64,000 bases of DNA, from NCBI RefSeq assembly GCF_003258365.1, contig NZ_QHKM01000004.1:1-64000 (forward strand), read 5' to 3'. Source of the stretch: Hymenobacter edaphi. Lineage in GTDB: Bacteria > Bacteroidota > Bacteroidia > Cytophagales > Hymenobacteraceae. The notes beneath the pieces were generated by a model. It did no database searches, was not told where the DNA came from, and was given only the letters and a program-made list of their open reading frames with translations. This document shows, one piece after another, positions 2,204 through 53,516 of this stretch. Both the position numbers and the translations under genes were made by a program. How positions within the stretch are numbered: the first letter of the stretch is position 1; each line of letters opens with the position of its first letter.

Positions 2204-2338
2204 GTTCGTTATTCGTTGTTCGTTTTTTGTTATTCGTTTGGCGAGTATCGTAAGGTCCTGACTTCACGCTACGTGTAGCAGGGCATTGCCAGTGCCGTTG
2301 TGACGAGCAACGAAAAACAAACCACGAACAACGAGCAA
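2204..2338. repeat. Word-type inverted repeat A (TTCGTT words)
   Basis: The left arm at 2204-2239 iterates GTTCGTTATTCGTTGTTCG-type words. The right arm at 2302-2338 carries the complementary CGAACAACGAGCAA-type words, separated by about 60 bases. The arms are imperfect. The left arm starts five bases after the peptidase stop codon and the right arm ends directly at the start codon of the LysR gene, so there is no ordinary ribosome-binding site. The same word is used in element H at 53.4 kb. Confidence 0.8.
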
Positions 2339-3247
2339 ATGCTTTCCACCCAGCACGAAGTATTTCTGGAAGTTGCGCGGCGGCTGAGCTTCACCAAGGC
2401 CGGGCAGAGCCTGTTTCTGAGCCAGTCGGCGGTGAGCAAGCAGGTAAAGGCCCTGGAGGAGTACTACCAGGTGGGCCTGTTCGAGCGGCTCGGCAACACC
2501 GTGGCCCTCACGCCGGCCGGGCAGCTGCTCTACCGCAAGCTGCTGCAGGCCCAGCAGCTGCAGGCCGAGTTGCGCGCGGAAATGGCCGCCCTCAGCCCGC
2601 GCTTCACGCCCGACATTCACATGGTCATCGGGGCCAGCACCACCGTGTCGCTGTACGTGCTGCCGGCCGTGCTGTCGGGCTACCTGGCCGAGCACCCGCA
2701 CACCCAGCTCACGCTCAAAAACCGCAACAGCGAAAACATCCTCAAAGCCCTGCTCGACCACGAAATCGACCTGGGCGTTATCGAGGGCATTCACCGCGTG
2801 AGCAACGTGACCTACACCCCCCTGCTCACCGACGACGTGGTGGCCGTGTGCTCGGCCCGCAACCCGCTGCGCCACCAGCAGCTGGCCCTCACCGACCTCT
2901 ACCGCGTGCCGCTGGCTTTGCGTGAAGCCGGCTCGGGCACCCTGGCCGTGCTGGAGCAGGCCTTGCAGGCCCAGCGCATCCGCCTGGCCGATTTGCGAGT
3001 GCAGGTGCGCCTGGGCGGTACCGAGGCGCTGAAAAACTTCGTGCGCGTGGATGATCAGGTGCTGGCCTTTCTGCCCCGGCAGGCCGTGGCCCGGGCGCTG
3101 GCCGCCGGCGAGCTGGCCGAGGTGACGGTGCGCGACCTGCCGCTGAAGCGCCACTTCGAGTTTATCCAGCGCCGGGGCACCGAGAACCTGGCGCCGTTCC
3201 GCGAGTTCATGCAATTCGCGCTGCGCTACTATTCCGAACGGGAATAG
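2339..3247 (+). CDS. LysR-family transcriptional regulator
   Basis: This 302-residue protein has a winged helix-turn-helix at residues 5-60 (FLEVARRLSFTKAGQSLF then SQSAVSKQVKALE), followed by a two-lobed substrate-binding domain that starts near residue 90 (PDIHMVIGASTTVSLYVLP). This is the standard length and layout for LysR regulators, which bind DNA as tetramers and respond to a small-molecule co-inducer. The ATG at 2339 gives a standard N-terminus; an in-frame upstream ATG would translate repeat A and is unlikely. LysR regulators often control adjacent genes, here possibly threonine synthase and the ammonium transporter downstream, but nothing in the sequence proves that. Confidence 0.88.
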   Translation: MLSTQHEVFLEVARRLSFTKAGQSLFLSQSAVSKQVKALEEYYQVGLFERLGNTVALTPAGQLLYRKLLQAQQLQAELRAEMAALSPRFTPDIHMVIGASTTVSLYVLPAVLSGYLAEHPHTQLTLKNRNSENILKALLDHEIDLGVIEGIHRVSNVTYTPLLTDDVVAVCSARNPLRHQQLALTDLYRVPLALREAGSGTLAVLEQALQAQRIRLADLRVQVRLGGTEALKNFVRVDDQVLAFLPRQAVARALAAGELAEVTVRDLPLKRHFEFIQRRGTENLAPFREFMQFALRYYSERE

Positions 3248-3356
3248 GGTATGCCGAAATACCATTTGCGGCGGGCATAACTGCAAGACTACTTGCGGCC
3301 GTTTCAGGGGCAGATTCCGACGCTACCGGGTTCTGCTCACCTGCTTTTCCGCCGCC

Positions 3357-4556
3357 ATGCTTGTTGCCGCCGATACCACCAGCCTGCTCACCGCCCTGGA
3401 GTGCAGCCGCTGCCACGCCCCCCACGCGGCGGGCGTGGCCCAAACCGTTTCCCGCTGCTGCGCCGCGCCGCTGCTGGCCCGCTACGCCCTCGACGCCGCC
3501 CCGCCCCGCAGCGTGCTGGCCGGCCGCGAAGCCAGCATGTGGCGCTACCGTGAGCTGCTGCCCCTGCACGACGACGCCCACCGCGTGAGCCTGGGCGAGG
3601 GCCTGACGCCCATCCTGACGCTCGACAACCTGGCGGCCCGCTACGGGTTGCGCTCCTTGCTGCTCAAGGATGAAGGCCAGAACCCCACCGGCTCGTTCAA
3701 AGCCCGCGGCCTGAGCATGGCCGTGTCGCTGGCCCGGGAGCTGGGCGCGGCCGGCTGCATCATTCCCACGGCCGGCAACGCGGGCGTGGCTATGGCGGCC
3801 TACTGCGCCAAGGCCGGCCTGCCCGCCACGGTGGTCATGCCGCGCCACACGCCCGTCGCCTTTCAGGAGGAATGCCGCTGGTACGGTGCCGACGTGCAGC
3901 TCGTCGACGGGCTCATCAACGACTGCGCGGCCCGGGTGCGCGAGCTGAACGCCGCCGGCCAGCTGCTCGACGTGTCGACGCTGAAGGAGCCGTACCGCCT
4001 CGAAGGCAAGAAAACCATGGGCTACGAGCTGGCCGAGCAAGGCGGCTGGCGCCTGCCCGACGTCATCCTGTACCCGGCCGGCGGCGGCACCGGGCTCATT
4101 GGCATCTGGAAGGCCCTGCGCGAAATGCAGGCCATCGGCTGGCTGCCGGCCGACGCCAAGTTGCCGCGCATGGTGGCCGTGCAGGCCGAAAACTGCTGCC
4201 CGCTGGTCGAAACCCTGGCCGGCCGGCAGCCCAACTGCCAGCAGTACCAGGGCCGCCCCACCATTGCCAACGGCCTGGCCGTGCCGCGCCCCCTGGGCGA
4301 GGCGCTGATGCTGCAGGTGCTGGCCGAATCGAAGGGCACGGCCCTGGCCATCGGCGACGAGGACATGCTGACCGGGATGCGGGAGCTGGCGCGGCTGGAA
4401 GGCCTGTTTGTGGCCCCCGAGGGCGCGGCCGTGTGGATGGCCGCCCGGCAGCTGCTGGCCACCGGCTGGCTGCGCCCCGACGAGGAACTGCTGCTGCTCA
4501 ACACCGGCTCGGGGCAGAAGTACCTCGACAACGTGCTGGGCCGGCACACGGCGTAG
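3357..4556 (+). CDS. thrC: Threonine synthase (PLP-dependent)
   Basis: This 399-residue enzyme of the fold-type II PLP family converts O-phosphohomoserine to threonine. It has an N-terminal cysteine cluster (Cys16, Cys19, Cys34, Cys35), as in many threonine synthases, then SLGEGLTPIL, the PLP lysine in NPTGSFKARG (Lys115), the TAGNAGVAMAAYCAKAG helix start and the glycine-rich phosphate loop GGGTGLIG. Length fits the short (about 400-residue) threonine synthases. A related threonine deaminase-like or cysteate synthase role is possible, but the SLGEGLTP and N-terminal Cys region favour ThrC. No other threonine-pathway genes are nearby. Confidence 0.85.
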   Translation: MLVAADTTSLLTALECSRCHAPHAAGVAQTVSRCCAAPLLARYALDAAPPRSVLAGREASMWRYRELLPLHDDAHRVSLGEGLTPILTLDNLAARYGLRSLLLKDEGQNPTGSFKARGLSMAVSLARELGAAGCIIPTAGNAGVAMAAYCAKAGLPATVVMPRHTPVAFQEECRWYGADVQLVDGLINDCAARVRELNAAGQLLDVSTLKEPYRLEGKKTMGYELAEQGGWRLPDVILYPAGGGTGLIGIWKALREMQAIGWLPADAKLPRMVAVQAENCCPLVETLAGRQPNCQQYQGRPTIANGLAVPRPLGEALMLQVLAESKGTALAIGDEDMLTGMRELARLEGLFVAPEGAAVWMAARQLLATGWLRPDEELLLLNTGSGQKYLDNVLGRHTA

Positions 4557-4572
4557 CAAGCAGCAAAGCACG

Positions 4573-4677
4573 TGGCCTGCCGCCAGGCGTCGCACGACGT
4601 TCGGCAGCAGGCCTTTTCGTACCGACGCCCGCCGGGGCCCAGCCGAAGCCTTTTCGGACGGGCCCCGGCGGGCGTCG
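4573..4677 (+). terminator. Two consecutive strong hairpins after thrC
   Basis: The first hairpin, 4573-4612, pairs GGCCTGCCG with CGGCAGCAGGCC and ends before CCTTTTCG. The second has perfect 18-base arms at 4623-4640 and 4660-4677 (CGACGCCCGCCGGGGCCC and its complement), with an inner CCGAA/TTCGG stem. Together they very probably end thrC transcription, but the second is longer than a simple terminator needs and lacks a T run. Confidence 0.65.
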
Positions 4678-5000
4678 TTGTGACAACCGGGCAGCGGCCG
4701 GGGCACCGCAGACTTTCCGGAACGCCTGGTCAGCCCAGCGTGCCCGGGCGGCAGGATAAGGAAGCACGGCGGCGGGCAGCTCGGTTGCCCCGCTGCGCCC
4801 GGCGGCTGATGCTTGCCGCCCGAGCGAAGAAATACTGCTCGCATGGAGAGCCGTATTATGCTTCGAGCTAACGGGTGTTTGTTTTGGGGGTATTGTGGAT
4901 TGTTATCCACTGTTTTTCGAAATAAGCCCTGTGATTATAGGGGGTGTTGTGATAAAAGAGATGTTGTTTGTAACTTGACCCCTGAAAAATAAAGGTTGAT
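4678..5000. other. Non-coding gap before the ammonium transporter
   Basis: The left two thirds are GC-rich and hold several short palindromes. The last 130 bases (from about 4870) are AT-rich and should contain the amt promoter. I looked for TTTG-N20-TAnnTTTG and for a sigma-54 TGGCAC-N5-TTGC site and found neither convincingly. AAATAAAGG just ahead of the start codon at 5001 may serve as the translation initiation region. Confidence 0.4.
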
Positions 5001-6383
5001 ATGGTTTTCCCCGCCTCTTCCCCCTTGTCTGTTGCTCGCATAGCCCTCGGGGGGCTGTTGCTGGCCGCGCTGGTAGCCGCCGGCGTGCCCACCGAACACC
5101 CCGCCGCCGCGCCCGGCTCGCTCAACGGCGCCGACATTGCCTGGATGCTCACCGCCACAGCCATGGTGCTGATTATGACGCCCGGCCTCTCGTTTTTCTA
5201 CGGCGGCATGGTGCGCCCCAAGAACGTCATCAGCACCATGCTGCAGAGCTTCGTGGCCCTGGGCGTGATTTCGCTGGTGTTCTACTTCGTGGGCTTCTCG
5301 CTGGCCTACGGCGACTCCTGGCACGGCCTGATCGGTAACCCGCTCACGTTTGCGCTGCTCAACCACGTGGGCACGGCGCCGCACCCGCTGCTCTCGCCCA
5401 CCATTCCGTTTATTCTCTACTTCGCCTTTCAGCTGAAGTTTGCCATCATCACGCCGGCCCTCATTACGGGCTCCTTTGCCGAGCGCGTGCGCTTCAAGGG
5501 CTACCTGGCGTTTATGGTGCTGTTCTGCCTGTTCATCTACTGCCCGCTGGCTCACTGGACCTGGCACCCCGAGGGCTTCCTGCGCCAGTGGGGCGTGCTC
5601 GACTTTGCGGGCGGCACGGTGGTGCACATTTCGGCCGGCATTGCGGCCCTGGCCGGCGCCATGGTGCTGGGCCCGCGCACCACGCACCGACGCAAAGCCG
5701 TGTTTTCGACCCCCAACGTGCCCTACGTGATGCTGGGCACCGGCCTGTTGTGGTTTGGCTGGTTCGGCTTCAACGCCGGCTCGGCGCTGGCCGCCAACGA
5801 GCTGGCCGCTACGGCCTTCGTCAACACCAACCTGGCTTCGGCCGCGGCCTTGTTTGCCTGGCTGCTGATGGAAGTGGCCCGCGGCGGTAAGCCCACGGCC
5901 GTGGGCGCCTGCGTGGGCGCGGTGGTGGGCCTGGTGGCCATTACGCCGGCCGCCGGCTACGTCACCTACGGCCAGAGCATCCTGTTCGGGGTGCTGGCTT
6001 CGGTTATCAGCCAGCTGGCCGTGCACTGGCAAAACTCGCGCACCGGCATCGACGACACCCTCGACGTATTCCCCTGCCACGGGCTGGGCGGTATTGTCGG
6101 GATGCTGCTCACCGGTATATTTGCCGATAAGGTGGGGCTGATTCACGGCACGGCCACGGTGTTTGGCAACCACGTGCTGGCCCTGCTGATTGTGGTCGGC
6201 TACTCCTTCGCGGGCACCTGGTTGCTGCTCAAGCTCACCGGCCGCTTCTTCGCCCTGCGCGTGAAGTCGGCCGACGAAGAGCTGGGCCTCGATCTGAGCC
6301 AGCACGAGGAATCGACCTACCACGTCGACGAGGAATTTGAGCGCACGTACCGCAAGGAGCTGCTGCCCGCGGAAGTGCACTAA
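5001..6383 (+). CDS. amt: Ammonium transporter, Amt/AmtB family
   Basis: This 460-residue inner-membrane channel carries ammonium into the cell for nitrogen assimilation. It has an N-terminal signal-like segment (residues 11-29), as AmtB does, followed by the family pattern of 11 membrane helices. The conserved pore residues are visible: PGLSFFYGGMVRPKN in the first helix region, the first of the twin histidines in GGTVVHIS (His209), and the second in FPCHGLGGIVG (His360). The C-terminal tail (ADEELGLDLSQHEEST) is the usual cytoplasmic regulatory tail contacted by GlnK proteins. No glnK (PII) gene follows, which is unusual because amt is often linked to it. A terminator follows at 6473. Confidence 0.95.
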   Translation: MVFPASSPLSVARIALGGLLLAALVAAGVPTEHPAAAPGSLNGADIAWMLTATAMVLIMTPGLSFFYGGMVRPKNVISTMLQSFVALGVISLVFYFVGFSLAYGDSWHGLIGNPLTFALLNHVGTAPHPLLSPTIPFILYFAFQLKFAIITPALITGSFAERVRFKGYLAFMVLFCLFIYCPLAHWTWHPEGFLRQWGVLDFAGGTVVHISAGIAALAGAMVLGPRTTHRRKAVFSTPNVPYVMLGTGLLWFGWFGFNAGSALAANELAATAFVNTNLASAAALFAWLLMEVARGGKPTAVGACVGAVVGLVAITPAAGYVTYGQSILFGVLASVISQLAVHWQNSRTGIDDTLDVFPCHGLGGIVGMLLTGIFADKVGLIHGTATVFGNHVLALLIVVGYSFAGTWLLLKLTGRFFALRVKSADEELGLDLSQHEESTYHVDEEFERTYRKELLPAEVH

Positions 6384-6472
6384 CACAAGCTGATTTCGCG
6401 CCGTCAGTCGCCGTCCGGGGTTGACTGATCACCCACGGCGCGGACCAGGGGGGAGGTTCAGTGAAGTAGGGA

Positions 6473-6506
6473 GAAAAGCCGCCAGAGGGGAAACTGGCGG
6501 CTTTTC
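6473..6506 (+). terminator. Rho-independent terminator after amt
   Basis: Perfect 13-base arms GAAAAGCCGCCAG (6473-6485) and CTGGCGGCTTTTC (6494-6506), followed by GTTTTTATTG. The A-rich 5' side means it could also work on the other strand. Confidence 0.85.
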
Positions 6507-6577
6507 GTTTTTATTGCAGGCGCGGTTTGGGCACGAGGCCCGGGCCAGGCACGCCGGCGTTTTAGTTTTCAATCCCG

Positions 6578-7276
6578 ATGACCGTATCCTCCGTGTGGCT
6601 GGTGGCGCTTTCCAAGCAGCTGAACGTGCTGAGCGTGGCCGCCGCGCTGCTGCCGGTGGGGGTGGGGCTGCTGCACTGGCGGCACCTGACCACCTCGGGA
6701 CGCTGCCTGTGGGTGTGTTCGTTGCTGGCCAGCCTGCTGCTGGGCGGGCTGTGCGAGTACGGGCGGCTGGTATGGCACAACAATATCCTGCCGCTGCGCA
6801 GCCAGGTATGGCTGGAAACCGTGATGCTCACGGTGGCCTACTACCACGCTTTCACCAACCCCCGGCGGCGCCGGGCCATTCCGTGGCTGCTGGGCGTATT
6901 CACGCTGGGCGCCGTGGTCGAGACGGGCTGGTTTATGGACTGGCGCGTCGGCAACGGGCCGTACCTGCACGTGCTGCAGGCCATGCTGCTGATTGGGGTG
7001 GTCCTGGCGTATTTCGAGCAGCTGCTCAATAACCCGACGCCGGTGCCCCTGAGCCGAAACCCCATGTTTGTGGCCAGCGTGGGGGTGATGTTTTATTACG
7101 CCGGCACCGTGTTCGTGTACGTGCTGGAGCGCGTGATGCGCCAGGATACCGACCAGATACGAATGATGTTTATCGTGGAGTACACCCTGCGCATCCTCGT
7201 GCTCAACGGGGGCATTGCCGCCGCGCTCTGGCTTATGGCCCGGCGCGCCGGGCAGCCGGTGCGTGCCGCTCGATGA
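6578..7276 (+). CDS. Multi-pass membrane protein of unknown function
   Basis: This 232-residue protein has about six or seven predicted membrane helices spread over the whole length (for example LNVLSVAAALLPVGVGLL, LWVCSLLASLLLGGL, VMFYYAGTVFVYVLE) and a basic C-terminus (MARRAGQPVRAAR). I do not recognise a family; no catalytic motif is evident. It follows the amt terminator, so it probably has its own promoter. Its last 44 bases overlap, tail to tail, the end of the ZIP transporter gene on the other strand. Confidence 0.7.
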   Translation: MTVSSVWLVALSKQLNVLSVAAALLPVGVGLLHWRHLTTSGRCLWVCSLLASLLLGGLCEYGRLVWHNNILPLRSQVWLETVMLTVAYYHAFTNPRRRRAIPWLLGVFTLGAVVETGWFMDWRVGNGPYLHVLQAMLLIGVVLAYFEQLLNNPTPVPLSRNPMFVASVGVMFYYAGTVFVYVLERVMRQDTDQIRMMFIVEYTLRILVLNGGIAAALWLMARRAGQPVRAAR

Positions 7277-8093
7277 CCTGCGGCGCATTGGGGTTGTCCT
7301 TGTCGAGCTTGCTGAGGTAGAACGCCGCCAGAAAGCCCAGCACCGTAATCAGGCCGGTGAAGTTGTGGGCCACCTCGAAGGCTTCGGGAATCATCGTGTC
7401 GGCAATCATGGCCAGCACGGCGCCGGCGGCCACGGCCGTGGTGGCGGCCACCACGCCGGCCGAAAAGTGGCTGAAAACGGCAAACCCGGCCCAGGACGCC
7501 ACGCCCGAAATCAGCGCGATGCCGCTCCAGAGCAGCAGCACGTAGCGGGCCGGGCGCCCGGCTTTCTTCATGCCGGCGGCGCTGCTCAGGCCCTCGGGCA
7601 GGTTGGAAAGGAAGATGGCCGCCACCGCCACGGTGCTCACCACCCCGCCCGCCAGCATGCTCAGCCCGATAACAATGCTTTCGGGAATCCCGTCGAGCAG
7701 GGCGCCCACGGCCAGGGCCAGGCCGTTGTCGTCGCCGGCGTCGTTGCCCTCAGTTTCGCCTTTCTGCACCTCCTTGCGCTCGGTAGCCTGCTCGTGGCCC
7801 GAGCGTTTGCGGTGCTTGGCGCCGTAGCGGGCCAGCAGCCAGTTGGCCGCGGTGTAGGCCGCCGCCCCGCCCACGAAGCCCAGGCCGGTGGCGTTGAAGC
7901 CGCCGCGGGCGTAGGCCTCCTCCATCAGCTCCAGCGAGAGGGTCGAAATCAGGACGCCGCTGCCGAAGGCCATGACGGCGGCAATGAGCCGCTGCGGCAC
8001 GTGCGCGAAGTAGCCGATGGCGGCGCCCAGCAACAGGGCAGAGCCCGACGCCAGGCCCCAGAAACCGGCCTGCAGCCAGAGGGGAAATGTCAT
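7233..8093 (-). CDS. ZIP-family metal transporter
   Basis: This 286-residue membrane protein has about eight predicted helices and a charged cytoplasmic loop in the middle (KHRKRSGHEQATERKEVQKGET), the typical ZIP layout. The metal-binding signature is in helices 4-5: GALLDGIPESIVIG and IFLSNLPEGLSSA, with the His/Asn/Glu positions largely kept although the usual His-rich loop is reduced to a few His/Lys residues. ZIP proteins import zinc or other divalent metals. The ATG at 8093 was chosen because it begins directly at the first helix (MTFPLWLQAGFWGLASG); the frame upstream is repeat B. Confidence 0.8.
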   Translation of the reverse strand: MTFPLWLQAGFWGLASGSALLLGAAIGYFAHVPQRLIAAVMAFGSGVLISTLSLELMEEAYARGGFNATGLGFVGGAAAYTAANWLLARYGAKHRKRSGHEQATERKEVQKGETEGNDAGDDNGLALAVGALLDGIPESIVIGLSMLAGGVVSTVAVAAIFLSNLPEGLSSAAGMKKAGRPARYVLLLWSGIALISGVASWAGFAVFSHFSAGVVAATTAVAAGAVLAMIADTMIPEAFEVAHNFTGLITVLGFLAAFYLSKLDKDNPNAPQVIERHAPAARRAGP

Positions 8094-8102
8094 GTACGTG
8101 GT

Positions 8103-8174
8103 GCTTGGTGCGTAGTGCCTGGTGCGTAGGCCGCACGAATGGTCGAGCCAAGCACCAGGCACTACGCACCAAGC
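8103..8174. repeat. Word-type inverted repeat B (GTGCTTG words)
   Basis: Perfect 23-base arms lie at 8103-8125 and 8152-8174, separated by 26 bases. Each arm iterates words of the type GCTTGGTGCGTAGTGCCTGG. It fills the gap between the ZIP start codon and the stop codon of the DUF167 gene (8176). Element F at 46.4 kb uses the same word. Confidence 0.9.
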
Positions 8175-8175
8175 C

Positions 8176-8445
8176 CTATTTCGGATGTGCCAGCAGGGCC
8201 GCGCGCAGCTCCGCGTCGGTCAGATCGGGCACGTCGACCTTCTTGAACGGGGCCGCGTGGCCGCTGACGAGCGTGAGGCGGCTGCGCGGCACGCCGAGCA
8301 CCGTGGCCAGAAAGCGCAGCAGGCAGTCGTTGGCCTTGCCGTCTTGGGCCGGGGCGTGCAGGCGTACGGTCAGCGCGCCGTCGGCTGCCAGCTCCAGCGC
8401 ATTCTGTCGGGCGTTGGGCTTGGCTTTCAGGTGCAGGGTGGCCAT
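8176..8445 (-). CDS. DUF167 (YggU-family) protein
   Basis: This 89-residue protein matches the small DUF167/YggU family: the conserved core GALTVRLHAPAQDGKAND is followed by CLLRFLATVLGVPRSRLTLVSG and a short basic/hydrophobic tail. The molecular function of the family is not established; members are small alpha/beta proteins and are sometimes encoded near YggS/YggT or cell-division genes, which are not present here. The start codon at 8445 touches the left arm of repeat C. The stop codon almost touches the right arm of repeat B, so this short gene is boxed in by two repeat elements. Confidence 0.88.
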   Translation of the reverse strand: MATLHLKAKPNARQNALELAADGALTVRLHAPAQDGKANDCLLRFLATVLGVPRSRLTLVSGHAAPFKKVDVPDLTDAELRAALLAHPK

Positions 8446-8625
8446 TGGTGAGGTGGTGAAATGGTGAGGTGGTGAGTTTGTGAAATGGTGAGGTGGTGAG
8501 GTGGTGAGTTGACGTTACGCTTGCGCAAACGGCGCGCAAAACTGCGCAAAAGCGCAACCATCGGCCTGATCCAGCATACGCCTAACTCACCAACTCACCA
8601 ACTCACCAACTCACCACCTCACCAC
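8446..8625. repeat. Word-type inverted repeat C (GGTGAG words)
   Basis: The left arm at 8446-8510 iterates TGGTGAGGTGGTGAAATGG-type words about seven times. The right arm at 8584-8625 iterates the complementary AACTCACC words. The loop of about 70 bases is rich in GCGCAA/TTGCGC motifs. The left arm starts immediately at the DUF167 start codon and the right arm runs into the stop codon of the next gene (8625). Element G at 52.2 kb uses the same word. Confidence 0.9.
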
Positions 8626-8825
8626 TACGCCGGCGAGTTGTAGGCGTCGTACACGTTCCAGGCCCACAGGGCCAGGGGCACGACGATGGTCCACCACAGC
8701 AGGAAGCCCACGATGCCGCTCATCACCCAGATGAACACGGCTTTGAGCAGCTGGCCTTTGATGAGCTGGCCGAGGCCGGGAATAAAGGCCGACAGCAGGG
8801 CCGGCACGCCGTAGGTTGGTTTCAT
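8625..8825 (-). CDS. Small membrane protein, TM2-like
   Basis: This 66-residue protein has a first hydrophobic hairpin preceded by the motif FIPGLGQLIKGQLLKA, the G-x-G-Q-hydrophobic-x-x-G pattern of TM2-domain-like small membrane proteins, and a second segment (GIVGFLLWWTIVVPLALWAW). It ends NVYDAYNSPA, the usual D-A-Y type tail of such proteins. Function is unknown. The ORF is short, but start, composition and the family-like motif make it credible. It is downstream of an endonuclease III-like gene on the same strand, with only 30 bases between. Confidence 0.75.
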   Translation of the reverse strand: MKPTYGVPALLSAFIPGLGQLIKGQLLKAVFIWVMSGIVGFLLWWTIVVPLALWAWNVYDAYNSPA

Positions 8826-8855
8826 AGCGGGGCAAGATGGAAAAATGCGGTGGAA

Positions 8856-9620: not shown

Positions 9621-9655
9621 AGTAATGGCAAACGCAGCCCCGGGCCCGGCGGTTG

Positions 9656-9711
9656 GCCCGGCCGCAAAAAAGCCGAAACCCGTGCGGATTCCGGCTTTTT
9701 TGCGGCCGGGC
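9656..9711 (-). terminator. Strong terminator after the Gly/Tyr-rich protein gene
   Basis: Perfect 20-base arms, 9656-9675 and 9692-9711 (GCCCGGCCGCAAAAAAGCCG and its complement), with six A and six T inside the stem. It lies 12 bases downstream of the stop codon of the minus-strand gene at 9723. Confidence 0.85.
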
Positions 9712-37779: not shown

Positions 37780-37784
37780 AGACC

Positions 37785-37996
37785 ACGGATTCGACGGATT
37801 TTTCGGATTCCACGGATTTCGTGGCCGATTCCTCAGGCAACGTCGCCCATCCGTCTGGTTTAGGATGGTAAAATTATTCAAACAAGCACGAAAAAAGCCG
37901 CTCTGCGGACAGAGCGGCTTTTTCTGACGTGGGAATCGTTCGGAAAATCGAATCGTTCACAGAATCCGTGGAATCCGAAAAATCCGTCGAATCCGT
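37785..37996. repeat. Word-type inverted repeat D (ACGGATT words)
   Basis: Perfect 34-base arms at 37785-37818 and 37963-37996 iterate words such as ACGGATTCGACGGATT. Between the arms (about 145 bases) lies a terminator-like hairpin at 37891-37923. The left arm starts five bases before the pth start codon and the right arm ends five bases before the rplY stop, so the element is exactly the gap. Confidence 0.92.
37891..37923 (-). terminator. Rho-independent terminator after rplY
   Basis: AAAAAAGCCGCTCT, loop GCGGAC, AGAGCGGCTTTTTT; about 14-base arms. Inside repeat D, downstream of rplY on the minus strand. Confidence 0.85.
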
Positions 37997-38001
37997 AGTC
38001 C

Positions 38002-40097: not shown

Positions 40098-40170
40098 TTG
40101 TCCGACCAGGGCTCGAACCTGGACTTTCTTGAATCAAAATCAAGCGTGTTGCCAGTTACACCATCGGACA
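40098..40170 (-). tRNA. tRNA-Gln (anticodon UUG)
   Basis: Read on the minus strand it starts TGTCCGATGGTGTAACTGGC and ends with AGTCCAGGTTCGAGCCCTGG plus TCGGACAA. Acceptor stem TGTCCGA/TCGGACA pairs fully; the anticodon stem is CTTGA/TCAAG around the loop TTTTGAT, giving anticodon UUG (reads CAA, Gln). The T arm has GGTTCGAG. The discriminator base is A and CCA is not encoded. It has its own terminator. Confidence 0.95.
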
Positions 40171-41931: not shown

Positions 41932-41936
41932 TTTTT

Positions 41937-42024
41937 TAGTTGACAGTTGACAGTTGTCGGTTGTCAGTTCGAATGCAAAATCGGATTGGCACTGACAACT
42001 GACAACTAAAAACTGACAACTGAC
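41937..42024. repeat. Word-type inverted repeat E (TTGACAG words) within atpDC
   Basis: The left arm at 41938-41970 iterates TTGACAGTTGACAGTTG; the right arm at 41991-42024 iterates ACTGACAACTGACAAC. The loop is about 20 bases. The left arm starts 6 bases after the atpD stop codon and the right arm ends exactly at the atpC start codon. Confidence 0.92.
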
Positions 42025-46422: not shown

Positions 46423-46424
46423 TA

Positions 46425-46516
46425 TGGGTGCTTGGTGCGTAGTGCTTGGTTGTTAGTGCCTGGGGCTCAGGCCGGGCTTGCGTCAGAACGACCCAAGCAC
46501 CACTTACCAGGCGCTA
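46425..46516. repeat. Word-type inverted repeat F (GTGCTTG words)
   Basis: The left arm at 46425-46466 iterates GTGCTTGGTGCGTAGTGCTTGG; the right arm at about 46493-46516 reads CCAAGCACCACTTACCAGGC. It is more degenerate than the others. It starts at the pglE-like start codon and ends in the pglD-like stop codon. TCAGAACGAC (46483-46492) immediately precedes the right arm, exactly as in element G. Same word as element B. Confidence 0.75.
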
Positions 46517-47206: not shown

Positions 47207-47211
47207 GGAGA

Positions 47212-47880
47212 CTACTCGGAAGAAGACGACGGCGGCGGGCTGCCGCGGAAGGCCTCGGTGGTGGCCTGGCCGGGGGCGCTGATGCCGCGGGCGCCGAGCA
47301 CGCGGGCCGCCGTCAAGGCGAGAATACGTAAATCCAGCGCAAACGACGCGTGCGCCACGTACCACAGGTCGTAGTCGAACTTCTGCTCCCAGCTGATGGC
47401 GTTGCGCCCGTTTACCTGCGCCCAGCCCGTAATGCCGGGCCGCAGCGCGTGGCGCCGGGCCTGCGCGGGCGAGTACAGCGGCAGGTACTCGACCAGCAGG
47501 GGCCGGGGCCCGACCAGGCTCAGGTCGCCGCGCAGCACGTTCCAGAGCTGGGGCAGCTCGTCGAGGGAGGTGGCGCGCAGCCCGCGGCCGAGGCGGGTGA
47601 GGCGCTGGGCATCGGGCAGCAGCTGGCCGGCGGCGTCGCGGGCCTCGGTCATGGTCTGCAGCTTGTAGAGCGTGAAAATGCGGCCGTGCAGGCCCGGCCG
47701 CGGCTGCCGAAACAGCACCCCGCGCTGCCCCGGCTGCAGCCACAGCAACAGCGCCGCCCCGGCCAGCACGGGTAGCGCCAGCAGCAGCAGCGGCAGCGCC
47801 AGCAGCACGTCGAAGGCGCGCTTGCCCCGGCGCAGGTACCAGGTGCGGGGCGGGGCAGACGGGGCAGGGGAGAAGGGCAT
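47212..47880 (-). CDS. PglC/WcaJ-like phosphoglycosyl transferase
   Basis: This 222-residue protein has a single N-terminal re-entrant/TM helix (KRAFDVLLALPLLLLALPVL) and the monotopic phosphoglycosyl transferase core: FRQPRPGLHGRIFTLYKLQT (canonical KFRTM replaced by KLQTM), SLDELPQLWNVLRGDLSLVG and PRPLLVEYLPLYSPAQARRH, including the Asp-Glu catalytic pair. It moves a sugar-1-phosphate onto undecaprenyl phosphate to start a glycan. The short length is PglC-like. It heads the pglC-D-E cluster; a 21-bp palindrome array lies upstream. Confidence 0.9.
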   Translation of the reverse strand: MPFSPAPSAPPRTWYLRRGKRAFDVLLALPLLLLALPVLAGAALLLWLQPGQRGVLFRQPRPGLHGRIFTLYKLQTMTEARDAAGQLLPDAQRLTRLGRGLRATSLDELPQLWNVLRGDLSLVGPRPLLVEYLPLYSPAQARRHALRPGITGWAQVNGRNAISWEQKFDYDLWYVAHASFALDLRILALTAARVLGARGISAPGQATTEAFRGSPPPSSSSE

Positions 47881-47924
47881 GGCAGGCCGACACAGGGCGC
47901 CGCAAGTTAGGCCGCGCGGTCCAC

Positions 47925-48176
47925 AGCCGCGAGCTTGCGGCTCACAAGCGCGAGGCTGCGGTCGGAAGGCGCAACCCTGCGGTACCGGGCCGGAAAGTTG
48001 CGCTTCTGAACCGCGAGGTTGCGGCTGTTGGCCGCGAAGTTGCCGTTCCAGGGCGCAAGGCTGCGGTTAGAAGCCGCAACCCCGCATTGGTAGACTGCGA
48101 GGTTGCGGCTCGAAACCGGGAAGTTGCGCTTCGAAGCCGCGAGGGTGCGGTGCGGAGCCACGCGGCGGCCCGGAAC
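47925..48176. repeat. Array of 12 palindromic units with a 21-bp period
   Basis: Units start every 21 bases at 47925, 47946, 47967, 47988, 48009, 48030, 48051, 48072, 48093, 48114, 48135 and 48156. Typical units are AGCCGCGAGCTTGCGGCTC and AACCGCGAGGTTGCGGCTG: each is itself a small stem (GCCGC/GCGGC) with a loop of about 6. The last unit is degenerate. It fills the gap between pglC-like (minus) and ispE (plus). All reading frames are open across it because the period is 3x7. Confidence 0.9.
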
Positions 48177-48261
48177 CGCGCGGCGGCGGCGGCGTACCGC
48201 ACGCGGGTGGTCCGCCGCTGCGGACTGGCGCGGTGGCCGCGCAGTGCCGTTCTTTGCGCCC

Positions 48262-49080
48262 ATGCTCGTCTTCCCCAACGCCAAGCTCAACCTCGGACTG
48301 CACATCACGGAGCGCCGCCCCGACGGCTTCCACACCCTCGAAACCGTGATGCTGCCGCTGCCCTGGTGCGACGCGCTGGAAGTGCTGCCGGCCGCCGAAA
48401 CCACGCTCACGCTCACCGGCCGCCCCATCCCCGGCGACCCGGCCACCAACCTCTGCCGCCGGGCCTACGAGCTGCTGCAAGCCGATTTTCCCGAGGTGCC
48501 GCCCGTGCACCTGCACCTGCACAAGGTGGTGCCCATCGGCGCGGGCCTGGGCGGGGGCTCGGCCGATGCCGCCTTCGCCCTGCGGGCCCTCAACACCGTG
48601 CTGCAGCTGCAGCTGACCGACGAGCAGCTGGAAGCCTACGCCCGCCGCCTGGGCTCCGACTGCGCCTTTTTCATCCGCAACGAGCCCGCCCTGGCCCGGG
48701 GCCGCGGCGACGAGCTGCAGCCGCTGCCCCTGCCGCAGCTGCGCGGGGCGGCCTGCAAGGTCATCTACCCCAACCTGCACATCAGCACCGCCGAGGCTTA
48801 TGCCGGCGTGACGCCCAAGGCTCCCGCCCACGAGCTGCGCGCGGCTCTGGCCGGCCCGGTGGAAAGCTGGCGCGAGACGGTGGTCAACGACTTCGAAGCC
48901 TCGCTGGCGCCGAAGTATCCGCTGCTGGGCGAGCTGAAGGCGCAGCTGTACGCGGCTGGAGCGGCCTACGCCAGCCTCTCGGGCTCGGGCTCAGCGGTGT
49001 TCGGGCTGTGGCCGGGGCTGGCGCAGCCGCCGACTATGGCGCTGCCGGCGGAGTACCTGGTGTGGGACGGGCAGCTGTAA
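48262..49080 (+). CDS. ispE: 4-diphosphocytidyl-2-C-methyl-D-erythritol kinase
   Basis: This 272-residue GHMP kinase phosphorylates CDP-methylerythritol in the MEP route to isoprenoids. It has FPNAKLNLGLHITERRPDGF, the ATP loop VPIGAGLGGGSADAAFALRA, LGSDCAFFIRNEPALARGRG and GSGSAVFGLWPG. The start at 48262 (MLVFPNAKLN) is family standard; longer upstream frames run through the palindrome array. A weak box GTTCTTTG lies about 15 bases ahead. Divergent from the pglC-like gene. Confidence 0.95.
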   Translation: MLVFPNAKLNLGLHITERRPDGFHTLETVMLPLPWCDALEVLPAAETTLTLTGRPIPGDPATNLCRRAYELLQADFPEVPPVHLHLHKVVPIGAGLGGGSADAAFALRALNTVLQLQLTDEQLEAYARRLGSDCAFFIRNEPALARGRGDELQPLPLPQLRGAACKVIYPNLHISTAEAYAGVTPKAPAHELRAALAGPVESWRETVVNDFEASLAPKYPLLGELKAQLYAAGAAYASLSGSGSAVFGLWPGLAQPPTMALPAEYLVWDGQL

Positions 49081-49207
49081 AGGCCGCCGGGCTTCCCGGC
49101 GGCTAATCGGCGGCGCAGCCGGATGACCTGCGCAAAAAAGGCATTATCCGACACCACCCAGCCCTTCACGCCTCCGGGTGACAGCCCCCGGGGTTTATTC
49201 TTTTCTT

Positions 49208-51196
49208 ATGCCTTTCCGTTTTCCGCTGCTTGTGCTGCTATTCGTTGCCTCGTCTGCCGCCCTGGCCCAAACCGAGGCCGACTACGCCCGCTACCCCACT
49301 TACACCGGCTCTGATTTGGGCCTGACCTACGCCGGCAAGCAAGCCAAGCTGCGCGTGTGGGCGCCCACGGCCGAGCAGCTCACCCTGCGCCTCTACGAGG
49401 CGGGCACCGGCGGCCTGCCCCGGGCCACGCACGCCATGCAGAAAGCCGAGGGCGGCACCTGGACCTACACCCTGCCGGCGGGCGCCACCGGCTTCTACAC
49501 CGTGCAGGCCACCATAGCCGGGCAGGCGCGGGCCGAAGTGGCCGACCCGTACGTGCACGCCGTGGGCCTGAACGGGCAGCGCGGCGCCCTGCTCGATGCC
49601 GCGGCCGCCACGCCCGCCGGGTGGGCGCAGGACCAGCGCCCGGCCCTGGCCCAGCCCACCGACGTGGTTATCGGGGAAGTGCACGTGCGCGACCTGTCGA
49701 TGAGCCCAACGGCGGGCGTGCGGCACAAAGGGAAGTTTCTGGGCTTCACCGAAACGGGCACGCGCGGTCCGCAGGGCGTCAAAACCGGCCTCGACCACCT
49801 CGCGGAGCTGGGCCTGACCCACGTACACCTGCTGCCGACCAACGACTTCGCCTCGCTCGACGAGAGCCAGCCCGGCCCGCGCTACAACTGGGGCTACGAC
49901 CCGCTGCACTACACCGTGCCCGAGGGCAGCTACGCCACCGAGGCCGCCGCGCCGGCGGCCCGCATCGTGGAGCTAAAGCAGCTGGTGCAGGCCCTGCACC
50001 GCCAGCGGCTGCGCGTGGTGCTCGACGTGGTCTACAACCACACCGCCGACGCCCGCCGCTCCAGCTTCGAGCAGCTGGTGCCCGGCTACTACTACCGCCA
50101 CACCGCCGACGGCCGCCTCTCCGACGCCGCCGCCTGCGGCAACGAAGTGGCCTCGGAGCGGCCCATGGTGCGCAAGCTCATTGTGGAATCGGTGGCGTAC
50201 TGGGCGCGGCACTACCACGTCGACGGCTTCCGCTTCGACCTGATGGGCATCCTCGACCTGGAAACCATGCGCCAAGTGCGCGCGGCCCTCGACCAGCAGG
50301 ACCCGAGCATCTTCGTCTACGGCGAGGGGTGGACGGCCGGGGCTAGTCCGCTGCCCGAAGCCCAGCGCGCCGTGAAGGCCAACGTGGCCCAGGTGCCCGG
50401 CGTGGCCGCGTTCGGCGACGAGCTGCGCGACGGGGTGAAGGGCCACTACGCCCGCCAGACCGAGCCGGGCTTTGCCAGCGGCCGGCCGGGGCTGGAGGAA
50501 AGCGTGAAATTTGGCATCGTGGGCGCCACCCGCCACCCCCAGCTCGACTACGCCCGGGTCAACTACAGCCACGCGCCTTGGGCCGCCGCGCCCAGCCAGA
50601 GCATCAACTACGTGGCCTGCCACGACGACATGGTGCTCTGGGACAAGCTGCGCGCCGCCAACCCCGGCGCCAGCGAGGAGGAGCTAATGCGCATGGACGC
50701 GCTCAGCAACGCCATTGTCTTCACTTCGCAGGGCGTGCCCTTCCTGCCCGTTGGCGACGAGTTTTTGCGCACCAAGGGCGGCGCGCACAACTCCTACAAC
50801 CTGCCCGATTCCATCAATCAAATCGACTGGGCGCGCAAAGCCCGTTACGCGCCGGTCTTCGCCTTCTACCGGGGCCTGATAGCCCTGCGCCGGGCGCACC
50901 CGGCCTTCCGGCTGCCCACGCAGGCGCTGGTGGCCCGCCACCTGGAGTTTCTGCCCGATGTGCCCGCCGGCACCATTGCCTACCGCCTGCGCGGCCACGC
51001 CGGCGGCGACAAGTGGGACAACATCGTGGTGGTGTTCAACGGCAACCGCGCCCCCGCCCGCGTGCCCGTCCCCGCCGGCCGCTACACCGTGGTCTTGCGC
51101 GGCCTCGACGTCAACGAGCAGGGCCTGGAGAAGCTGGATCAGGCGCAGCAGCCGCTAACGGTGCCGGCCAGCTCGGCGCTGATTCTGGTGCAGTAA
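49208..51196 (+). CDS. pulA: Pullulanase type I (GH13)
   Basis: This 662-residue protein has a signal peptide (MPFRFPLLVLLFVASSAALAQ), an N-terminal beta-sandwich (CBM48-like, about residues 25-130), the pullulanase signature YNWGYDPLHYTVPEG, and GH13 motifs VVLDVVYNHTAD, DGFRFDLMGILD (nucleophile Asp), VYGEGWTAG (acid Glu) and YVACHDDMVLWDKL (the His-Asp site, with Asp instead of Asn). It would debranch alpha-1,6 links in pullulan or glycogen/starch limit dextrins in the periplasm or outside. Length is normal. Followed by a shared terminator. Confidence 0.93.
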   Translation: MPFRFPLLVLLFVASSAALAQTEADYARYPTYTGSDLGLTYAGKQAKLRVWAPTAEQLTLRLYEAGTGGLPRATHAMQKAEGGTWTYTLPAGATGFYTVQATIAGQARAEVADPYVHAVGLNGQRGALLDAAAATPAGWAQDQRPALAQPTDVVIGEVHVRDLSMSPTAGVRHKGKFLGFTETGTRGPQGVKTGLDHLAELGLTHVHLLPTNDFASLDESQPGPRYNWGYDPLHYTVPEGSYATEAAAPAARIVELKQLVQALHRQRLRVVLDVVYNHTADARRSSFEQLVPGYYYRHTADGRLSDAAACGNEVASERPMVRKLIVESVAYWARHYHVDGFRFDLMGILDLETMRQVRAALDQQDPSIFVYGEGWTAGASPLPEAQRAVKANVAQVPGVAAFGDELRDGVKGHYARQTEPGFASGRPGLEESVKFGIVGATRHPQLDYARVNYSHAPWAAAPSQSINYVACHDDMVLWDKLRAANPGASEEELMRMDALSNAIVFTSQGVPFLPVGDEFLRTKGGAHNSYNLPDSINQIDWARKARYAPVFAFYRGLIALRRAHPAFRLPTQALVARHLEFLPDVPAGTIAYRLRGHAGGDKWDNIVVVFNGNRAPARVPVPAGRYTVVLRGLDVNEQGLEKLDQAQQPLTVPASSALILVQ

Positions 51197-51213
51197 AGGC
51201 AGTTACTGCTACG

Positions 51214-51261
51214 AAAAACCGCCGCGCCGGGCTTCCAAACGGGAGCCGGCGCGGCGGTTTT
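51214..51261. terminator. Bidirectional terminator between pulA and EamA gene
   Basis: AAAAACCGCCGCGCCGG pairs with CCGGCGCGGCGGTTTT around a 15-base loop, in the convergent gap. Works for both genes. Confidence 0.85.
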
Positions 51262-51277
51262 GGGTTTCGACGTAGGC

Positions 51278-52213
51278 TTACCGTTCCACCAGGCTCACGG
51301 CCTCATCCGCCGTGGGCTTGCGGCGGCGCAGCTGCCACTGGTTCAGCAGCGGGTGAATGAGTACGCTGAGCAGGATAATGAAGGTACCTGCGTAGAAGCC
51401 CAACGACAGGCGCTCCTGCCCGAAGCCGGGCACCGCCAGCCAGTACATCAGCACGGCCAGCACGATGCCGTAGACGGGCTCCAGGTTGATGGTCAGGTTC
51501 ACGGCAAAGGCCGAAAGGCGCTTCATCAGCTCCACCGAGGCCGAGAAGGCGTACACCGTGCACACGCCGGCCAGCAGCAGCAGCCACAGCCAGTCGGCGG
51601 GGGTGGGGTCGAGGCTGGGCAGCGGGCCGCCGAAGGCCGGGCGGGCAATCAGAAACACCATGATGCTCAGGCAGGCCCCGGCCATTTCGTAGAGCGTGAG
51701 GCGCAGCGGCGGGTGGTCCTTGATGAGCCGGGCATTGAGCACGCTGAAGAGGGCGCTCAGCCCCGCCGACAGAATGGCCACGCCTAGGCCCAGCAGCTGG
51801 TCGAACTCGGCCTGCGACACCAGGTACAGCCCCACCATGGCCAGCAGCCCGAGCAGGATTTCGTAGGGTTGAAACCGCTTGCGCAGCAGCAGGGGCTCGA
51901 GCAAGGAGGTCCACAGCGCCAGCGTGGCCATGCCCGCCAAACACACGCTCACCGACGAGAGCCGCGCCGCCAGGAAGAAGGTAATCCAGTGCGCGGCCAC
52001 CAGCGCGCCCACCCCCAGCAGCCGCAGGGCCTGCCCCGTGGGCACGCGCCAGGGCAGCCCGCGCAGCACCAGCAGCCCGATCAGCCCCACCGAGGCAATG
52101 AGCGTGCGGTAAAACACCAGCTCCACCGGCGGCAGCGAAATCAGCTTGCCCAGAATGGCCGTGAAGCCCCACAAAAACACAATGAAGTGGAGGCGGAGGT
52201 AGTCTTTGAGCAT
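51278..52213 (-). CDS. EamA/DMT-family transporter
   Basis: This 311-residue membrane protein has ten hydrophobic helices in two five-helix halves, the duplicated EamA layout of drug/metabolite transporters: LHFIVFLWGFTAILGKLISL, LVFYRTLIASVGLIGLLVLR and MATLALWTSLLEPLLLRKRF in the first half, NARLIKDHPPLRLTLYEMAG and LSAFAVNLTINLEPVYGIVL in the second. Substrate is unknown. Start at 52213 follows repeat G directly; the upstream in-frame extension is the repeat. It converges with pulA. Confidence 0.87.
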   Translation of the reverse strand: MLKDYLRLHFIVFLWGFTAILGKLISLPPVELVFYRTLIASVGLIGLLVLRGLPWRVPTGQALRLLGVGALVAAHWITFFLAARLSSVSVCLAGMATLALWTSLLEPLLLRKRFQPYEILLGLLAMVGLYLVSQAEFDQLLGLGVAILSAGLSALFSVLNARLIKDHPPLRLTLYEMAGACLSIMVFLIARPAFGGPLPSLDPTPADWLWLLLLAGVCTVYAFSASVELMKRLSAFAVNLTINLEPVYGIVLAVLMYWLAVPGFGQERLSLGFYAGTFIILLSVLIHPLLNQWQLRRRKPTADEAVSLVER

Positions 52214-52327
52214 GTGGTGAGATGGTGAGGTGGTGAACTGGTGAGTTTGATGGTTGGGAGGCCGGAACAGCGCATTTCGCGCATTCAGAACGACACTCAC
52301 CAGTTCACCACCTCACTATCTCACCAC
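52214..52327. repeat. Word-type inverted repeat G (GGTGAG words)
   Basis: Arms at 52214-52246 and 52295-52327 agree at 32 of 33 positions when complemented. They iterate GGTGAG/CTCACC words. The left arm touches the EamA start codon and the right arm touches the LptF/G stop codon (52328). TCAGAACGAC (52285-52294) immediately precedes the right arm, as in element F. Same word as element C. Confidence 0.92.
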
Positions 52328-53407
52328 TTAGCGCGGAACGAAGCGGTACAAAATCAGCCCGATGGTGCTGAAGACAATATTGGGCACCCAGGCGGCCAGC
52401 ATGGGGTTCATATCGCCCACCAGGGCCAGGTTGCGGCTCAGGATGACGAAGCCGATGTAGATAAACGCCAGCACGAAGCCCAGCGCAATCTGCCCGCCCA
52501 CGCCGTTGCGCGACTTGCGGGCACTCATAATCACGCCGATGACGGTGAGAATGACGATGGCGAAGGGGTAGGCGTACCGCTCGTATTTCTCCACCAGGTA
52601 GATTTCGGTGTCGTCGGCGCCGCGGTTGATTTTCTCCCGGATGAACGCGTTCAGCTCGGGGGTGGTCATCGTCTCCTGCAGCTTGAAAGTGCTGGCGAAA
52701 TCCTTGGGGTAGAGGTTCAGCGTCGTGTCGCGGGCGGGGTAGGTGCGCAGCGTTTCCTTGCCGTTGCGAATGGTGCGCACCGTCTGCTGCGTCAGGCGCC
52801 ACACCTTCTTGGTGGTGTCCCAGCTGATGGCCTCGGCCTGCATGCGCCGCTTGAGCAGGGTGCCCTCGATGGTTTCGATGGCGAAGCGGTAGCCCACGTT
52901 GGCCGAGTTGTCGTAGCTTTCCAGGTAGGCGTAGTTGTTCGGGCCGATGCGGATGTGCACGTTGCGCCCCTGAAAGTGGTAGGGGTTCTTCACGTACTTC
53001 CGCTCGAAGGCCACGCGCGGCTTGTTGGCCAGCGGAATCACCCAGCCGATCAGCCCGAAAATGGCCCCGCCGATGAGCACGCCGCCCATTACGTAGGGCA
53101 GCAGAAACCGCCGAAAGCTCACCCCGCTGGCCAGAATGGCCACAATTTCGGTGCGCGCCGCCAGCCGGGCCGTCACCAGCACCGTGGCAATGAACACGGT
53201 AATGGGGCTGAGCAGGTTGGCGTAGTAGGGGAAGAGGTTCAGGTAGTACTCCGAAATAATCTTCCACGCGCCCAGGTCGTGCTTGATGAAGTCGTCGTTT
53301 TTCTCCGTGAAGTCAATCACGCAGATAACCATCACCAGCACCACCACCGTGAAAAAGAAGGTGGTGAGCAGCTTGCCGAGGACGTATTTATCGAGGAGGC
53401 GGAGCAT
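52328..53407 (-). CDS. LptF/LptG-family permease
   Basis: This 359-residue inner-membrane protein has three helices at each end (LLDKYVLGKLLTTFFFTVVV, SPITVFIATVLVTARLAART, GVLIGGAIFGLIGWVIPLAN; and AYPFAIVILTVIGVIMSARK, GGQIALGFVLAFIYIGFVIL) around a periplasmic beta domain (about residues 115-270), the layout of LptF/G, which pull LPS from the membrane with the LptB ATPase. The motif SGVSFRRFLLPYVMGG is typical. LptF versus LptG cannot be separated from sequence alone. No lptB is nearby. Confidence 0.88.
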   Translation of the reverse strand: MLRLLDKYVLGKLLTTFFFTVVVLVMVICVIDFTEKNDDFIKHDLGAWKIISEYYLNLFPYYANLLSPITVFIATVLVTARLAARTEIVAILASGVSFRRFLLPYVMGGVLIGGAIFGLIGWVIPLANKPRVAFERKYVKNPYHFQGRNVHIRIGPNNYAYLESYDNSANVGYRFAIETIEGTLLKRRMQAEAISWDTTKKVWRLTQQTVRTIRNGKETLRTYPARDTTLNLYPKDFASTFKLQETMTTPELNAFIREKINRGADDTEIYLVEKYERYAYPFAIVILTVIGVIMSARKSRNGVGGQIALGFVLAFIYIGFVILSRNLALVGDMNPMLAAWVPNIVFSTIGLILYRFVPR

Positions 53408-53516
53408 TCGTTTTTCGTTATTCGTTTCTCGTTTTTCGGCTCAGTTGATAACTGGCCAGTTTCGTTGGCAGTTGTTGGGGAAACGAAAAACGAAGAACCA
53501 ACAACGAAAAACGAAC
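53408..53516. repeat. Word-type inverted repeat H (TTCGTT words)
   Basis: The left arm at 53408-53439 (TCGTTTTTCGTTATTCG type) touches the LptF/G start codon and the right arm at 53480-53516 (GAAAAACGAAGAACC type) touches the tgt stop codon (53517). About 40 bases separate them. The arms pair imperfectly, roughly 30 of 37 positions. Same word as element A. Confidence 0.85.

Follow-up and report, generated by a model that had tools for sequence, protein, structure and literature searches.

Word-built inverted repeats in eight intergenic gaps

The first 64,000 nucleotides of contig NZ_QHKM01000004.1 of Hymenobacter edaphi (RefSeq assembly GCF_003258365.1; hereafter the window) contain eight intergenic gaps, A to H, in which a preliminary description had noted inverted repeats whose arms iterate short words beside start or stop codons. 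Reading the eight gaps directly, we saw the named words in such arms and at such positions in each. We give about an even chance to the reading that these are dispersed intergenic word elements that are copied in, replaced and then left to drift, and that possibly act on mRNA in the manner of repetitive extragenic palindromes (REPs). The eight gaps are a selection: the window has 61 inverted pairs of at least 20 nt, terminators and REP-like elements included. Gene boundaries throughout are those of our own hexamer-based gene caller.

TTCGTT words form the arms of gap A (2204-2338; ungapped arms 2213-2238 and 2309-2334), which follows an M28 peptidase gene and precedes a LysR regulator gene, both on the plus strand, and of gap H (53408-53516; arms 53407-53438 and 53484-53515), between TGT and LptF/LptG genes on the minus strand. 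GGTGAGNT octamers build gap C (8446-8625; arms 8462-8500 and 8586-8624) and gap G (52214-52327; arms 52214-52246 and 52295-52327), where the arms touch the boundaries of both flanking genes, LptF/LptG and EamA, on the minus strand. Gap B (8103-8174) has perfect arms of GTGCTTG/GTGCGTA words (8103-8125 and 8152-8174) between neighbours called co-directional on the minus strand, and gap F (46425-46516), the weakest of the eight, has gapped arms of GTGCTTG words between PglD-like and DegT aminotransferase genes, both minus. Gap E (41932-42024; TTGACAG words, arms 41933-41954 and 41991-42012) comes immediately after an ATP synthase alpha/beta-family gene on the plus strand, taken as atpD, and before a presumed atpC. 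Gap D (37780-38001), upstream of a peptidyl-tRNA hydrolase gene on the minus strand, carries ACGGATT words with a period of 9 (arms 37781-37831 and 37950-38000) that surround a terminator-like hairpin with a T run; these word arms are absent in relatives other than the one designated G003. By the gene calls used, all eight gaps are co-directional; an earlier run of the caller had put the genes at A and B on the other strand. We scanned ten flanking proteins against Pfam, covering both neighbours of A, F, G and H and one neighbour each of B, D and E. The strands in use at A and at D to H are borne out by matches to M28 peptidase, LysR regulator, peptidyl-tRNA hydrolase, ATP synthase alpha/beta family, DegT aminotransferase, PglD-like, EamA, LptF/LptG and TGT proteins; at B, a ZIP-like match fell below the cut-off.

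The inverted repeats are real. Ungapped inverted-repeat scores for gaps A to H were 17, 23, 27, 36, 16, 9, 30 and 20, and seven of the eight outscored all 60 dinucleotide shuffles, the exception being F (best shuffle 10). Folding of the gene strand as RNA gave z values of -6.7, -8.7, -10.7, -12.0, -9.7, -2.5, -10.8 and -7.4; no shuffle out of 200 folded as well as the real gap at seven gaps and one did at F. At the gathering score, an Rfam scan of the window returned a tRNA gene (40098-40170, minus) as its sole match. That these are ordinary intrinsic terminators is very improbable. The hairpins do follow stop codons, and gap D and a second gap, X3_17785, enclose a hairpin with a T run; however, the iterated hairpins have long loops (26-118 nt between the ungapped arms of the eight gaps), mostly lie between co-directional genes and mostly lack a T run, none being seen by eye after the outer stem in the eight gaps. 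X3_17785 is a convergent gap (contig C11 of H. edaphi, about 1,037,785) at which G003, in place of word arms around a T-run hairpin, shows a word hairpin that lacks a T run.

Abundance of the repeats and a dispersed octamer family

We examined 1.044 Mb of the genome (the window and a further 0.98 Mb), in which our caller delimits 699 gaps of 20-700 bp. An inverted repeat scoring at least 14 was present in 196 of these gaps, against 1 in one shuffled set. In a smaller first sample, many such repeats looked terminator-like or REP-like by eye. The 464 co-directional gaps contain 88 tandem-word arrays, against 8 after one shuffle, with word periods of 7, 8 and 9.

The GGTGAG octamers are the most fully resolved case. 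A 21-nt GGTGAG pattern (up to two mismatches) matched 296 times in the 6.04-Mb genome, versus no match for the reversed pattern. In all 26 gaps of the sample that hold a GGTGAG hairpin, the GTGA arm precedes the TCAC arm, and another 15 gaps have one array only. As controls, reversed sequence yielded 12 single arrays and one opposite arrangement and shuffled sequence two single arrays, with no hairpin in either. By gap orientation, the hairpins are found in 22 of the 464 co-directional gaps, in 3 of the 113 convergent gaps and in 1 of the 122 divergent gaps. Among the 22 co-directional ones, 19 have a best repeat that overlaps the upstream stop codon or begins no more than 8 nt from it, and in 8 the best repeat reaches to within 8 nt of the start codon downstream.

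The preliminary description had taken the loops to be unique, which fails for this family, because GGTGAG hairpins align with unlinked copies, loop included. Among the matches listed for two 20-kb queries from the H. edaphi genome, there were syntenic matches in five relatives and dozens of unlinked matches over GGTGAG elements; in the relatives, these unlinked matches are about 100-110 bp long and mostly 71-86% identical. Of 23 GGTGAG hairpins, 15 have a common loop motif (1.2 expected), versus 1 of 44 other iterated repeats (1.7 expected). This motif had first seemed to extend to several words, and on these counts we dropped it as a general signature. The GGTGAG hairpins are a dispersed family with a common core.

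A conserved full-length sequence with terminal inverted repeats would be expected of a classic miniature inverted-repeat transposable element (MITE) that a transposase mobilises in trans, and the iterated arms would then be the terminal inverted repeats. The dispersed copies of about 100-110 bp with a core between the arms fit that explanation. The other words lack the core, however, arm ends and unit number vary, no target-site duplication was recognised in the orthologous gaps read, which are not alignable, and no transposase with such ends emerged from a search covering PF01797 only; we regard a classic MITE as unlikely.

RAYT transposases (REP-associated tyrosine transposases) are linked to REPs. 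The one PF01797 match in the genome is a RAYT-type Y1 transposase gene (G000:C41:41082-41297), whose flanks, by eye, form a separate long inverted repeat that does not consist of the words described here; an automated scan over 400 nt listed none. We rejected this RAYT as the mover of the word hairpins since its flanking repeat differs.

Different words differ in their distribution. In a phylum sample of 296 genomes, not including the seven relatives of the same genus, the GGTGAG pattern (one mismatch) was found in 5, most often in H. edaphi (149) and in G016, which belongs to another genus (58), and was rejected as a phylum-wide word. Within the family, 16 of 40 genomes contain a GTTGNCAG pattern and 13 of 40 an ATGTGC pattern, H. 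edaphi included; these searches allow two to three mismatches, so single matches may be chance, and the reversed controls gave 0 or 1 per strand. Counts are uneven, with 122 GTTGNCAG matches in G003, 81 in H. edaphi and 3 in G006, and 57 ATGTGC matches in G016 versus 7 in H. edaphi.

Polarity of the word arrays

We then compared the base composition of arrays with their position in co-directional gaps. G+T-rich arrays lay at the stop codon in 22 cases, in the middle in 4 and at the start codon in none; A+C-rich arrays lay at the start in 25, in the middle in 13 and at the stop in 3; and mixed arrays were placed at the stop, the start and the middle in 7, 4 and 10 cases. In array-free gaps, the first and last 40 nt differ little (G+T of 0.50 and 0.46). 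For paired hairpins in this sample, polarity follows from hairpin geometry. Single arrays obey it too, among them all 10 of the GGTGAG type that stand alone in co-directional gaps. Without GTGA words, the signal in this sample is weak (6 G/T and 6 A/C arrays at stops, 0 and 8 at starts; p = 0.042).

TTGACAG, the word of gap E, extends the comparison to other genomes. An exact scan of species genomes for TTGACAG arrays gave at least 116 stretches; 69 of the 80 titles listed are cyanobacterial, several from the same assemblies, and other hosts among the matches listed are Bacteroidales, Firmicutes, Chloroflexi and Desulfobacterales. In loci longer than 3 kb there were 135 arrays, of which 38 were excluded (33 at edges, 3 in long gaps and 2 inside genes), and 91 of the 97 placed arrays obey the polarity, with 6 breaking it. 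No partner of the same word accompanies 84 of the 97, and 78 of those 84 obey it. We rejected the view that cyanobacterial-type TTGACAG arrays are hairpins, with a partner present for 13 of 97 (4 of 138 in a cruder count). Arrays of other words in the same loci were G/T-rich, A/C-rich and mixed in 35, 15 and 20 cases at stops, 2, 29 and 12 at starts, and 26, 33 and 28 in the middle.

The polarity signal is mainly one of G over C. G exceeds C in 26 of 29 arrays at stops in the H. edaphi sample and C exceeds G in 33 of 34 at starts; for all words the figures are 76 of 95 (3 ties) and 51 of 61. What counts as near a codon varies among these counts (15, 40 and 30 nt), the TTGACAG count taking the nearer end. 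Stop- and start-codon content also correlates with polarity, G-rich words often containing stop triplets and the boundaries being those of our own caller. Where the two rules conflict, the G/T rule holds in 17 of 25 cases at stops, leaving 8 to the stop-codon rule, and in 5 of 8 cases at starts, leaving 3 to the start-codon rule. The polarity itself is that the G-rich strand reads from the gene into the gap.

Different words at the same gap in relatives

Orthologous gaps were located in relatives by their flanking sequence. Gap E has an inverted repeat scoring at least 13 in all 12 genomes compared (with a 3-nt loop in G020), and by eye these fall into five word or repeat classes: TTGACAG in H. 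edaphi, G004, G005 and G007; ATGTG-type words in G003, G016, G002, G006 and G028; GTGAATGA in G001; a REP-like repeat in G011; and another palindrome in G020. Near position 1,032,966 of contig C11, six species show, by eye, GGTGAG, ATGTG, GTGAAGTT, GAGTT-type (G006 and G005) and TTGCCGG-type repeats, so that one and the same stop-to-start interval holds four or more distinct words across these species; the flanks there are 86-97% identical (76% for one right flank), and the G006 and G005 repeats score only 11 and 10.

To quantify recurrence, we compared long-loop or iterated repeats in co-directional gaps between H. edaphi and each of two relatives. In G003, a non-homologous repeat was present in 9 of 16 gaps whose H. 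edaphi repeat is unshared versus 14 of 115 gaps with no such repeat in H. edaphi (p = 1.8e-4), and in G001 in 9 of 15 versus 5 of 63 (p = 3.6e-5); further gaps held homologous repeats, 15 with G003 and 1 with G001. Restricted to gaps of at least 80 bp in both genomes, the p values were 0.0094 (G003) and 0.0012 (G001). Among gaps of at least 60 bp with a repeat in both genomes, the two repeats shared no 7-mer in 5 of 24 (G003) and 7 of 10 (G001). Vacant gaps also occur. The preliminary description had looked to empty sites in relatives as a sign of mobility, and near-empty gaps were indeed found: gap C is 3-11 nt long in G002, G004, G005 and G007, and gap G is 46-55 bp long and free of a repeat in three relatives. 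On these comparisons, recurrence of hairpins at the same gap is real, and moderate in its strict form.

Several observations weigh against copying and replacement. We found no enzyme that would do the copying, no duplicated target site and no empty site that could be aligned, in a transposase search covering PF01797 only. Several of the pairs counted as non-homologous still use related words. Under the strict definition of recurrence (no shared 7-mer), the difference was moderate, at 5 of 12 versus 14 of 81 gaps in G003 (p = 0.064) and 7 of 13 versus 5 of 40 in G001 (p = 0.0047), and some strict switches are between related GTGA or ATGTG spellings or involve REP-like repeats. Our first recurrence test, on 59 co-directional gaps, gave p = 0.13 per gap (p = 0.0005 for pooled pairs that are non-independent). 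The ATGTG element of gap E looks common to two genera (G003 and G016), so some elements are old. Gaps that merely tolerate insertions may also yield recurrence.

Word switching could instead be an exchange of alleles by homologous recombination in the flanking genes. In support of this idea, H. edaphi shares its gap E word with G004, G005 and G007, although G003 is its closest genome overall. Yet the gap E flanks of H. edaphi, the only ones compared in this way, are nearer to those of G003 (97/94% identity) than to those of G005 (93/91%), and exchange leaves the origin of new words at one site unexplained; we consider it a doubtful account.

Growth in situ would need no mobile element: polymerase slippage would lengthen the words, and template switching in the palindrome would make one arm a copy of the other. 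It seems to us still more doubtful. The number of units varies, arrays can be long, and in G003 gap C contains a long run of TTTCACCA units. By contrast, word switches in G003 occur in gaps with 91-98% identical flanks, stem changes are predominantly one-sided (see below), and words and core are common to unlinked loci. A REP-like element at X3_85439 (contig C11, about 1,105,439), with the sequence TGTAGCGCGAACT, can also be counted towards growth in situ: between H. edaphi and G003 both of its arms differ together yet remain complementary, while its inner arms differ, and template switching is possible there. Two GGTGAG arrays of more than 10 units lie at C11:1,076,412 and 1,506,284, one with a short partner arm and one with no visible partner.

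Mainly one-sided changes in the two arms

The preliminary description had read near-perfect arms as a sign of ongoing maintenance and compensatory arm changes as the mark of selection on RNA. Neither maintenance nor compensation finds support in a comparison of 16 homologous repeat pairs (15 with G003 and 1 with G001): among 364 stem pairs, 339 are unchanged, 23 are changed on one side and 2 are changed on both sides and still paired, against 0.5 predicted by independent change. Sense-strand arm mismatches in co-directional long-loop repeats number 37 G.T versus 37 A.C (10 versus 17 in GGTGAG arms), and the sense strand is more stable than the antisense strand in 26 of 52 iterated repeats. Terminator-like controls, in which a bias is expected, gave 12 G.T versus 4 A.C (p = 0.077) and 28 to 20 in favour of the sense strand (p = 0.15); both strand tests are of low power, these controls not being significant either. 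The stem counts are clearer evidence than the strand tests for DNA copies that drift after their birth.

These results bear on whether the repeats are selected mRNA hairpins, with a stem under selection between cistrons and a sequence that is free as long as pairing holds. The strong folding of the eight gaps is consistent with this explanation, as are the small excess of two-sided changes and the continued occupancy of gaps while the word changes, gap E being filled in every genome compared. Against it stand the predominance of one-sided changes, the missing G.T excess and the even sense-antisense split, together with the partnerless single arrays that follow the same polarity. With all three tests of selection on pairing negative, two of them at low power, we judge such hairpins improbable, and of the two origins first proposed for the repeats it is element copying that gains, from the dispersed GGTGAG copies, the near-empty gaps and the other words in the same gap, whereas RNA selection on pairing found no support. 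Repeated occupancy of gaps would nevertheless allow a function that depends on the presence of a hairpin, whatever its sequence.

A model of copying and replacement

Copying and replacement would operate as follows. An element would comprise a G-rich word array, a loop and a complementary C-rich array, in words of 7-9 bp. Some copying process, either insertion or gene conversion with a pool of words in the genome as its source, would refill the short stretch just behind a stop codon, in which a hairpin is presumably tolerated. The arms would match because copies are recent, and both sides would then drift independently. The data suggest that hairpins arrive and are exchanged as complete copies and not by gradual editing; the copying step and its agent are inferred. 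Once in place, a hairpin may, less securely, act on mRNA as REPs and bacterial interspersed mosaic elements (BIMEs) do, as a barrier at the 3' end or an insulator between two cistrons. By position, such an intercistronic effect is plausible, and it would favour keeping some hairpin whatever its word.

Relation to known repeats

Iterated intergenic words are a known class. The G-rich heptamers GGGAATC of Xanthomonas and GGGGA(C/T)T of Nostoc are described, in the parts of the report drawn on here, as lying between aligned open reading frames (ORFs) and under-represented between divergent ones, with the G-rich strand preferentially within 50 bp after a stop codon (sense) or before an ORF (antisense) (PMC4692102). 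Two Xanthomonas genomes have 70 and 75 convergent pairs, which are potential stem-loops; in the two species the heptamers mostly occupy the same gaps with varying length and sequence, and those parts of the report stress the increased stability of heptamer loci and give no function found (PMC4692102). The arrays in H. edaphi match these heptamers, as excerpted, in being tandem 6-9-bp words of intergenic DNA, in gap types and in strand rule, the G-rich strand being sense after a stop and antisense before a start. They differ in that the TTCGTT, GGTGAGNT, GTGCTTG, TTGACAG and ACGGATT units have, on inspection, no GGG, so quadruplexes cannot be the common cause. They also differ, from what those excerpts describe, in the presence of several words in one genome, of unrelated words at the same gap in relatives and of GGTGAG octamers with a core.

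The short tandemly repeated repetitive (STRR) sequences of cyanobacteria are likewise intergenic tandem repeats, usually of 7 bp and capable of forming hairpins, for example in the hupS-hupL gap, with suggested roles in transcript stability or translational coupling (PMC2670836). The portion of that report considered here describes them without word switching or a polarity rule, and our host belongs to the Bacteroidota. TAACTGA direct repeats occur in Beggiatoaceae, Cyanobacteria and five Bacteroidetes; in one genome most of them immediately precede a start codon, and the sections cited give no evident mechanism (PMC4679880). They resemble the present words as intergenic heptamers common to distant phyla; unlike them, they are direct repeats, with one indirect repeat in that genome, no predicted hairpin and mixed orientations in sampled Microcystis sets, according to the same sections (PMC4679880).

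REPs and BIMEs are dispersed extragenic palindromes near gene ends and in operons, for which mRNA stabilisation is reported (PMC12306157, PMC3733652), and REPs can lower translation when fewer than 16 nt separate them from a stop codon (PMC12306157), as far as the cited portions go. The word hairpins share with them a dispersed, extragenic, palindromic nature near stop codons, but REPs are described in those portions as palindromes of 20-40 bp, whereas the arms here are iterated words and the RAYT-type gene of this genome has other flanks. The BrickBuilt MITE of Porphyromonas gingivalis, of which an excerpt describes 19 intergenic copies of one family with 23-nt tandem units and small inverted ends (PMC4596501), likewise combines tandem repeats with inverted ends, and differs in word length and in being a single family.

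In the open-access literature searched, we found neither word switching nor a polarity rule for words without G tracts, nor a report of intergenic inverted repeats in Hymenobacter. New to that literature are G-tract-free words that obey the rule, many words per genome, a word that is changed while the hairpin is kept, and an octamer family with a core. In the reports considered here, heptamer repeats are treated, and explained, word by word, through quadruplex formation or a binding protein. If many words obey one polarity rule and substitute for one another at one junction, attention would shift away from any one word and towards the process by which words are written, and such junctions would be gaps in which to catch that process in closely related strains. 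More speculatively, and with considerable doubt on our part, several phyla may share an unrecognised class of gene-boundary arrays with a fixed grammar (iteration of 7-9 bp, a G-rich strand running from gene to gap, and a seat at the stop or start codon) and a free word, which a copying machinery would rewrite, often as matched pairs, at the same junction.

Other inverted repeats lie among the word hairpins. Within the window, a REP-like inverted repeat (TGTAGCGCGAAGTTTCAC) shares the gap at 56770-56946 with a stretch of GGCTAAATGG-type words that follows the upstream stop codon. Inverted repeats of the GTCATGCTGAGC and GTCATGTCGAGC types occur at C11:12,044-12,355, 69,253-69,543 and 153,407-153,747 of H. 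edaphi, and repeats like them occupy gaps E and G in G011 and gap H in G028, where H. edaphi has word hairpins.

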